A DNA stretch of 64,000 bases from Pycnopodia helianthoides (taxonomy: Eukaryota > Echinodermata > Asteroidea > Forcipulatida > Asteriidae), in contig CM063247.1 of NCBI GenBank assembly GCA_032158295.1, positions 16,470,009 through 16,534,008 of the forward strand, given 5' to 3'. Below the pieces are notes generated by a model. The model was not told the DNA's origin. It ran no database searches and saw nothing but the letters and a program-made list of their open reading frames with translations. The position numbers and the translations under genes were made by a program. Every line of letters starts with the position of its first letter. Within the stretch, counting starts at the first letter, position 1. Shown here piece by piece: positions 20,001 through 23,000 of the stretch.

Positions 20001-23000
20001 GAAGCATAGCAGCTTGTAGTAAGGTGGAGTAAGCGTGTAGTCTCTTGGAGCCGCCTATATCAACAGAGAGCTTCCTGGATGTGTTCTTGTAAGCAACGTT
20101 CACACAGAGCAGAAGTACAAGGAGAAGCACTCCTCCCTATGAGAACAGACCAACAAAATCTTTTAAAAGGTGGATGAATTCCAAAATGAAGAACAACTCT
20201 ATCTTGTGGCGTGTCATGGCTAAGCAAATCAGTGGATTGGACTTAAGATCTGATGGCTGGAAGTGTGGGTTTGATTCCTGGTTACGACACTTAGCGAGTT
20301 GAGAAAGTTTGAGGGATGGTCCAAGTATGCCTGATGAACAGGGATAAAAACAATGTCAAATGCCTTGATCTAGCTGGGAGGATTTATGTGCCATATAACA
20401 ACCAAGTATTAGTATTTTTATTATTATAAACTAATGTTTGATTTGTGGAGTGCTGTGGCCGAGCAGTCTGGCACCCTGGATTCAAGTTCTGGTGGCTGTG
20501 TTTGGATTATGGGTTCCAATCCTAGACTGGTCAAACATAGCACTTGTGTCCTTGAGCAAGACACTTAATCATAATTTGCTTCTCTTCACCCAGGAGTATA
20601 AATGGTAAAATGCCAGGGCCGAGTTGGTATTGCGTTTGATTAACACATAGCTTGGAATAGTTTGGAGGCACATACCCTTAGGTGTGATACCCCATTCAAT
20701 GAAATAGTTTGGAGGCACATACCCTGTGGTCTGATACCCCATTCAATGTAATAGTTTGGAGGCAAATACCCTGTGGTCTGATACCCCATTCAATGTAATA
20801 GTTTGGAGGCACTTACCCTGTGGTCTGATACCCCAATCAACAAAATACTTTGGAGGCACTTACCCTGTGGTCTGATACCCCATTCAATGTAATAGTTTGG
20901 AGGCACTTACCTGTGTCTGATACCCCATTCAATGTAATAGTTTGGAGCACTTACCCTGTGGTCTGATACCCCATTCAATGTAATAGTTTGGAGGCACTTA
21001 CCCTGTGGTCTGATACTCCAATCAATGAAATAGTTTGATAGAAGAGATGAGTTATGGCGCTACTGTGATGACCTTCAGCTGTGTTGGTGCAGTGGTTAGG
21101 GAATACATCCATTATGATAACCATTATTCATAAGTACCTGAGATAGTTTATCCGTTCTGATTGGTCGAGAGGAGATCTTGTGGCCATGTTAAAACGTTAT
21201 TAAACACGACTTGACCTTATTAAGTCAAAAGAGGGTGCTATCAGATGATAGCGCAAAGTGCGCACATTTTGGATGATTTTTGGGGGGGATGGTATCATAT
21301 TTGGATAGTGTAAGTTTGAAACTTGCATGCAGTAGTTTGAAACTTAAAGGGACAACTCCTCTTTAGATTGGGCACTTCGGGCTATACAAGATATTTAAAA
21401 AGTGGAATAAAATGATTCACATACATATCCCTTGAAAACGTGTGGTTTTTGTGTAATTTCAAGACAGAACACGGTCAGCTACTTTGTAGAATCAAATTTT
21501 TGCCTCCACAAAATGGCCGACTGTATGTTCTGCTGGTTGTATTTCAGAGGCAATCTTGAGTCCCTTTTTTATTACACTAGTAGTTTGAATAAACCTTTAA
21601 TCTATCATTATTGAAAAACAGTACTCATTGGCTGAAAGGATACGATGTGCAACTTGCGCAACTTTCAGGTCGACATCAAACAGCAGTAGGGACAAGACAG
21701 CGATCAGGAAAACAAAGGCACCCCTTGTCTACAATTGAGGGAAAATAAATAAGCAAAATGAAAAAGAATGACTTGAAGTAACTTTTGGGGGTTGTAGTTG
21801 TACAACATAGTGCGATCAGTTGGTTCAGTGTGCGATCAGTTGGTTCAGTGTAGGATCTTGTTGGATATGTTTCCTGCAGGACTGGAGTCTGGCAAGCAAT
21901 AAAGTGGTACAACAACATGTGGAAATGTGAACCCAACATTCATCTTAACCCTCCTACTATCTGACCATTCAATACCATCCATTTGTGATTGATCGATAAA
22001 CTATGCCCGCCTGCATGCTATCCTTTCTTCAAATACAGTAGTGGAGACTATTGCCAGTTAGAAGGTCGGCAAACTGAAGAGGAAAAAATGCCAGTTGGAA
22101 AGTTGGTGTCTGCACGCCTTCCCAAAGCAATCGCTGACTCTGAGCTCAGCTTGCAACTTATTCTGTACAAAGGGTGCTTCACAGGAGAAAGCTCTGCCAT
22201 CAAATGGCATTCAGGTTGGCCCAGTGGTTTCTCCCCTGCCTTTCACATCTGAGCCTTACATGTGTATTGAGTTTTCAGTCCCTATCCGGTTGAGCAAGTT
22301 TTCTCTATTTGGGGTCCCCCCCCACCACCCATCTAAAACTAAACATTTGTTTTTCTCTACAATAGCACTCTTGCCAGGTATACTAAGGTGTTACAGCACG
22401 CTTGCGGCGACAGTGGGCTCACCCCACCGTGCTGTAACTTTCTCAACCACTTCTTAAGTATTCCATGCTACGTAAAAAAAAAAGTGTAAATAAAGAGTGT
22501 ACAACTGGTTTCATTTATTTCTGTTGCTTATCTTCAGACCTACTATATACGCTGGTCACTTTTGAGGATCCCTTGGTTTTATTACCAGAAAGATATGATA
22601 ATGACGTGGGGTTCTCAAACAGACGTTTGTATGTGGATCACAAGGTGACGATCGGCGATATGTTCTGCTTTACAATTGGATTCACCTGCTGCATTGAGCA
22701 TTTAGAAAAAAGCATGATCAAACAGAGCACTTACCCTAGCTGGACCCCCTCCTCTACCAGTGAAGAGGGCTGCCACTGCCGCTGATACAACCACATCACT
22801 GTGATCAAACAGTAGAATAGTCCTGCCGAAAAAGAAAACAAAACAACAAGTGCTTTATGTAGCTTCCTACTCTTGGCATAAACATTTCCCAGTGAGTTGA
22901 CCAACCATTTTGACATTTTGAAACCATTCAACTGCACAGGTTGTGTAGTGTGGCACAACTGTAGGGTGGCACAACTGTGCACAGGACTAACTGTGTACAA

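Follow-up and report, generated by a model that had tools for sequence, protein, structure and literature searches.

A minisatellite covering the end of an exon and its 5′ splice site in the ZnT5 gene of the sea star Pycnopodia helianthoides

Introduction

What becomes of a splice donor when the end of its exon, together with the 5′ splice site itself, is repeated head to tail into the intron that follows? The question is raised by the ZnT5 gene of Pycnopodia helianthoides, which lies within a stretch of 64,000 nucleotides of contig CM063247.1 that we analysed as a whole (hereafter, the window). A preliminary description proposed that the repeated donors might cost splicing fidelity, buffer the gene against donor mutation, or serve a nonsense-mediated decay switch on zinc transporter output. 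Here we consider the identity and state of the gene, the extent and reality of the array, the predicted properties of its eight donors, the traces of selection on them, and the likely origin of the repeat.

Results

The host gene and its reading frame

The SLC30A5/ZnT5 gene occupies positions 13826-26675 on the minus strand and comprises 16 coding exons, from exon 1 (26675-26632) to exon 16 (14005-13826), separated by GT-AG introns, as assigned from the exon chain and homology. The predicted protein is 95% identical to a ZnT5-like protein of Asterias rubens over 100% of the query, and 85% and 82% identical to those of Patiria miniata and Acanthaster planci, respectively. The Cation_efflux domain (PF01545) is present in the A. 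rubens ZnT5-like protein and in both of the window exons examined. Full-length similarity, over the long N-terminal half and the cation-efflux domain, identifies the gene as an SLC30A5/ZnT5 ortholog. Exon 7 (21078-21002, minus strand; 77 nt; phase 1 to 0), with boundaries set by homology and GT-AG, is followed by the U2-type intron 7 (20137-21001, minus strand; 865 nt), which contains the array. The exon 7-exon 8 junction agrees with that of A. rubens, with no insert. The gene, the exon and the repeat unit had been correctly named at the outset, the strand being minus. A peptide joined from window exons 7 and 8 found no match among solved structures. Downstream of ZnT5, positions 9251-11211 (minus strand) hold ankyrin-repeat open reading frames, which may resemble fem-1.

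The ZnT5 frame is interrupted in the assembly by an in-frame TGA at codon 77 of 769, in exon 3 (25507-25509, minus strand), a position at which all three of the other sea stars aligned have arginine. We therefore do not class the allele as intact. The TGA may represent a null allele or a recent loss, or may be an error in the sequence; each of these would alter how much the array matters. The interruption allows a reading in which this ZnT5 copy is not fully functional and an awkward repeat grew unopposed under relaxed constraint. Besides the TGA and the arginine in the three aligned species, this reading can draw on the assembly (479,350,823 bases in 742 contigs), in which none of 24 matches, from 31 candidates that were all scored, was a further ZnT5 ortholog of similar identity; the matches on C11 and C14 are pieces that are 38-71% identical. 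However, the remaining exons are open, the introns are GT-AG and the protein is 95% identical to that of A. rubens, so that any decay must be very recent, and the TGA could just as likely stem from a base-call error or from a heterozygous allele. We regard growth of the array under relaxed constraint as quite unlikely.

Extent and reality of the array

The array (20656-21037, minus strand) consists of eight copies of a unit made of 36 nt of exon end, the 6-nt donor and about 5 nt, followed by a 9-nt partial copy. Copy 1 is the last 36 nt of exon 7 itself (21037-21002). Tandem Repeats Finder (TRF) reports for 20656-21037 a period of 47, 8.2 copies, 92% matches and a score of 631. With its head-to-tail copies and a unit within the size range of about 10-100 bp, the array is a minisatellite. 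The eight tandem copies of exon end plus 5′ splice site that had been described are borne out by TRF, by alignment of the copies and by shuffling. The spacing, given earlier as steps of 46-47 bp, proved nearly right: the units are 45-47 nt long and the successive donor-to-donor steps are 47, 44, 47, 47, 47, 47 and 47, one step being 44.

Two observations indicate that the array lies beyond chance. The end of exon 7 matches its best intronic copy at 32 of 35 nt, the best of 300 shuffled introns reaching 21, and the 64-kb window has nine [AG]GGT[AG]AGT sites on the minus strand, five of which (d1, the donor of exon 7, included) crowd into these 382 bp. That motif, on the minus strand, was absent from the other 19 window arrays checked, 26 TRF rows having been merged to 20 arrays. 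A search of the 479-Mb assembly with two units, by a method that passes over highly frequent words, gave four matches, all of them within the array itself.

The array is known from one assembly, and tandem repeats are prone to copy-number error; its copies might therefore have been multiplied or collapsed by the assembler. Against this, the copies carry private differences, and the region matches the assembly full-length at one place only, with no second copy or haplotig among the 40 candidates scored of 2525. An assembly artefact is, in our judgement, highly improbable.

Other tandem repeats occur in the window. A second, larger minisatellite in ZnT5 intron 3 (23984-25051; 100 bp × 10.7, 97% matches) is without a strong donor motif. 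At 31917-36862, two pairs of open reading frames are found again, along with a 128-bp tandem repeat, at a distance of about 3.03 kb, which suggests a recent tandem duplication of about 3 kb. A 37-bp tandem repeat at 31568-31638 overlaps a match to the Rfam histone 3′ UTR stem-loop RF00032 (31550-31595, minus strand; 36 bits, gathering threshold 34).

The eight donors

All eight donors retain GT; five read GTAAGT, two GTATGT and one GTATTT, in agreement with the earlier statement that most copies keep GTAAGT or GTATGT (seven of eight). Numbered from the exon and all on the minus strand, they were scored by predicted duplex formation with the 5′ end of U1. AGG/GTAAGT is present at d1 (20996-21001), d2 (20949-20954), d4 (20858-20863) and d5 (20811-20816), each with a predicted duplex energy of -10.8 kcal/mol. 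The third donor, d3 (20905-20910), reads CAG/GTAAGT, the full U1 complement, at -13.4 kcal/mol; in the copy alignment one G is missing before this donor and one C further up. The more distal donors are d6 (20764-20769; AGG/GTATTT), which is weak at -5.1 kcal/mol, and d7 (20717-20722) and d8 (20670-20675), both AGG/GTATGT at -7.0 kcal/mol. For the 14 donors of introns 2-15, which include d1, the energies lie between -1.5 and -11.6 kcal/mol, the weakest being that of the U12-like intron 6, for which U1 pairing is the wrong measure; d3 thus has the best predicted U1 pairing among the eight array donors and the 14 gene donors.

Only d1 carries the reading frame on into exon 8. Use of d2-d8 would lengthen exon 7 from 77 nt to 124-403 nt, leaving an intron of 818-539 nt, and in all seven cases the extended frame reads VSASKLLH and then meets the same stop. 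The claim that any distal donor adds a frame-shifting segment with a stop therefore holds for the stop (seven of seven), whereas the frame is shifted by only five of the seven, since the additions at d4 (+138) and d7 (+279) are multiples of three. Buffering against donor mutation, as it had been put forward, does not survive this result: all seven distal donors truncate the frame, and so none can replace d1. The array may plausibly carry a cost to splicing fidelity.

Selection and RNA structure

Useful distal donors should be better kept than the remainder of the unit, but no such difference was seen: among just 16 changes, which give low power, distal donor sites changed at 5 of 63 positions versus 11 of 266 for other unit sites (Fisher p 0.20), and for GTAAGT alone 4 of 42 sites changed versus 12 of 287 others (p 0.13, from the same 16 changes and with the same low power). 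Exact GTAAGT is kept in four of the seven distal donors and GT in all seven. When the 16 changes were placed at random, mostly five or six GTAAGT were kept, and roughly one run in four left no more than four; the observed retention fits random expectation. Preferential conservation of the distal donors was seen neither in the site counts (5/63 versus 11/266) nor in the random placement, although with so few changes (16) weak selection would be compatible with the data.

Nor was special RNA structure seen. Exon 7 with the array has a folding z-score of +1.64, with 96 of 100 shuffles folding at least as well, and the eight single units folded alone give z-scores of -0.74 to +0.23 against shuffles. 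Predicted accessibility is low for all eight donors (9-mer unpaired probability 0.000-0.011), and the predicted opening cost is lowest for d3 (2.8 kcal/mol, the least closed, versus 3.5-4.8 kcal/mol for the other seven). The prediction that d3 is both the strongest and the least closed donor counts against a neutral reading of the array, since d1 would have to be favoured in some way if the gene works.

These properties bear on the proposed switch, in which the fraction of splicing from distal donors, set by splicing factors or by array length, would tune ZnT5 output through a truncated, decay-prone message. The stop shared by all seven distal donors speaks for such a switch, as do the predicted pairing of d3 (the best among the donors scored) and its lowest predicted opening cost. 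One source states that, of two comparable 5′ splice sites, the intron-proximal one is preferred for reasons unknown (PMC6002489), and a long intronic VNTR in TERT is described as raising the share of decay-targeted transcripts (PMC11830802). Against the switch, the same TERT source states that isoform expression was not significantly associated with the VNTR in Burkitt-lymphoma tumours (PMC11830802). A nonsense-mediated decay switch would need distal donors that are kept and used; the lack of preferential upkeep counts against it, as does the fact that the array is known from one assembly. We consider the switch unlikely.

An upstream U12-like intron

Intron 6 (21079-21643, minus strand) is U12-like, of the GT-AG subtype. 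Its donor, GTATCCTTT, matches the GT-type U12 consensus at 9 of 9 positions, and a branch-like element, TTCCCTAAC, located 16 nt from the 3′ end of the intron, matches the U12 branch consensus at 8 of 9. Among introns 2-5 and 7-15, the 13 others examined, the best scores are 5 of 9 for the donor and 7 of 9 for the branch site, and the intron 7 donor has 3 of 9. The array donors are U2-type, and the tandem U12-type 5′ sites that mark the USSE elements considered below are not found here. By its donor and near-end branch site, intron 6 looks U12-type.

With a U12-type intron upstream, extra U1 sites could in principle help to define exon 7, and the array copies may be pictured as acting chiefly as U1 platforms, not as donors, and as aiding both exon 7 definition and removal of intron 6. 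The U12 matches of intron 6 (9/9 and 8/9), which exceed those of the other 13 introns, are consistent with this picture. Further encouragement comes from three sources: in an SCN4A construct, an upstream minor intron was spliced better when U1 occupied the major 5′ site downstream (Wu & Krainer 1996, via PMC8034651); the term USSE denotes tandem 5′ splice sites that are bound without serving as donors (PMC8329584); and U1 is reported to protect 23 nt on the upstream side and 12 nt on the downstream side (PMC6002489), a footprint for which the 44-47-nt spacing of the array would permit full occupancy. However, the distal donors are not preferentially conserved, d1 pairs well with U1 by itself, and one assembly is the source of the array; an enhancer function of this kind therefore seems to us very unlikely. 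The bolder proposal, that an array of U1 sites was recruited behind a minor-class intron where it speeds U12-type removal through exon definition, with distal copies also serving as graded unproductive donors that set ZnT5 output and array length acting as an evolvable dial, would also accommodate the sequence, and we give it hardly any credence. SLC30A5 was absent among the matches listed when the open-licence literature was queried for SLC30A5 together with minor introns.

Origin and turnover

A 9-nt direct repeat, CAAACTATT, stands at both ends of the array, on the exon side (21029-21037, minus strand) and on the distal intron side (20656-20664, minus strand), beyond which the sequence departs from the unit (CCAAGCTATG). 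This arrangement fits birth by slippage. In the first duplication, two CAAACTATT repeats spaced by 47 nt would have mispaired by slippage, an event that would double exactly the 47 nt between the repeat starts; slipped-strand mispairing is described as a source of minisatellites in PMC3320636. The distal CAAACTATT could also be merely a broken ninth copy.

Copies 2, 3, 4, 6 and 7 differ mutually at one to four positions (2, 4 and 7 at one or two), and the exon copy differs from the other array copies at six to nine. Against the array consensus, the exon copy differs in six columns, three of which lie within the matched exonic 35 nt, and some exon-like states are retained in copies 5 and 8. This mosaic of copy differences suggests continuing turnover with a constrained exon copy, in which later gain and homogenisation of copies would proceed by unequal exchange and the exon copy would be held by coding constraint.

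Other readings were considered. Derivation of the unit from a dispersed repeat was rejected, as the unit query, in a search that passes over highly frequent words, matched only the array. Inspected by eye, the array is without a pyrimidine tract before its internal AGs, and its interpretation as a new intron or a recursive splice site was also set aside. Intron 7 does hold two dispersed SINE-like repeats, one at 20293-20429 and one at 20444-20644 (plus strand), the latter stopping about 12 nt short of the array's distal end. Both have many partial matches in the assembly, those of the second at about 72-86% identity; of 2525 first-look candidates, 40 were scored.

Discussion

Our analyses favour, with somewhat better than even probability, the view that the array is an ordinary minisatellite whose unit by chance takes in the end of an exon and the adjoining 5′ splice site, that it is neutral to mildly harmful, and that it is tolerated rather than selected. 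Under this explanation, U1 could occupy several copies at once, exon 7 would usually be spliced from d1, and there would be some leak to distal donors, above all to d3 and then to d5. The leaked message would be truncated just after exon 7 and would be expected to be a decay target.

Comparison with known systems places the array within a kind that, given the precedent of human IFI6, is already known. In IFI6, as reported in 1995, a minisatellite provides multiple splice donors, two downstream repeat units being used and three mRNA species being produced, according to PMC4526556. Since all eight of its units carry donor-like sequence with GT, the sea-star array would belong, by sequence, with the IFI6 kind. 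The likeness to IFI6 lies in a minisatellite whose units carry splice donors; the difference is that the sea-star unit is 47 nt long and includes 36 nt of coding exon, with distal donors that are all predicted to be unproductive. A unit containing coding exon, extra donors each of which appears unproductive, and a U12-like intron ahead of the exon would set the array apart from the IFI6 kind.

Three further systems share some features with the array. The USSE of SNRNP48 and RNPC3 are described as tandem U12-type sites that are conserved, bound by U11 and activate an upstream U2-type 3′ site (PMC8329584). As there, 5′ splice-site sequences stand in tandem near an exon and two spliceosomes are linked; unlike there, the sea-star array consists of eight U2-type sites downstream of a U12-type 3′ site. 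Introns can also be gained when AGGT segments are duplicated in tandem, and the cases described include genes of fission yeast with tandem 24-bp repeats (PMC4974935). There too, splice-site-like sequence is duplicated in tandem inside a gene, but the duplicates furnish the sites of a new intron, whereas the sea-star array lies within an intron that was already present, and no new acceptor was found. The TERT intron 6 repeat VNTR6-1 is likewise an intronic minisatellite, and its host gene yields truncated as well as functional isoforms, a further point of likeness; its effect is ascribed to G-quadruplexes (PMC11830802), not to repeated donors. We found no report of the sea-star donor array in the open-licence literature, which does not prove absence.

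The array constitutes a natural competition assay of donor position versus donor strength in one transcript. Four of its donors (d1, d2, d4 and d5) share the same 9-mer in a near-identical exonic context at regular spacing, one (d3) is predicted to be stronger and three weaker. Why the intron-proximal of comparable 5′ splice sites wins is called unknown in PMC6002489, and this is the comparison that the four like donors offer. With a U12-like intron upstream, the array may also test U1 help across an exon.
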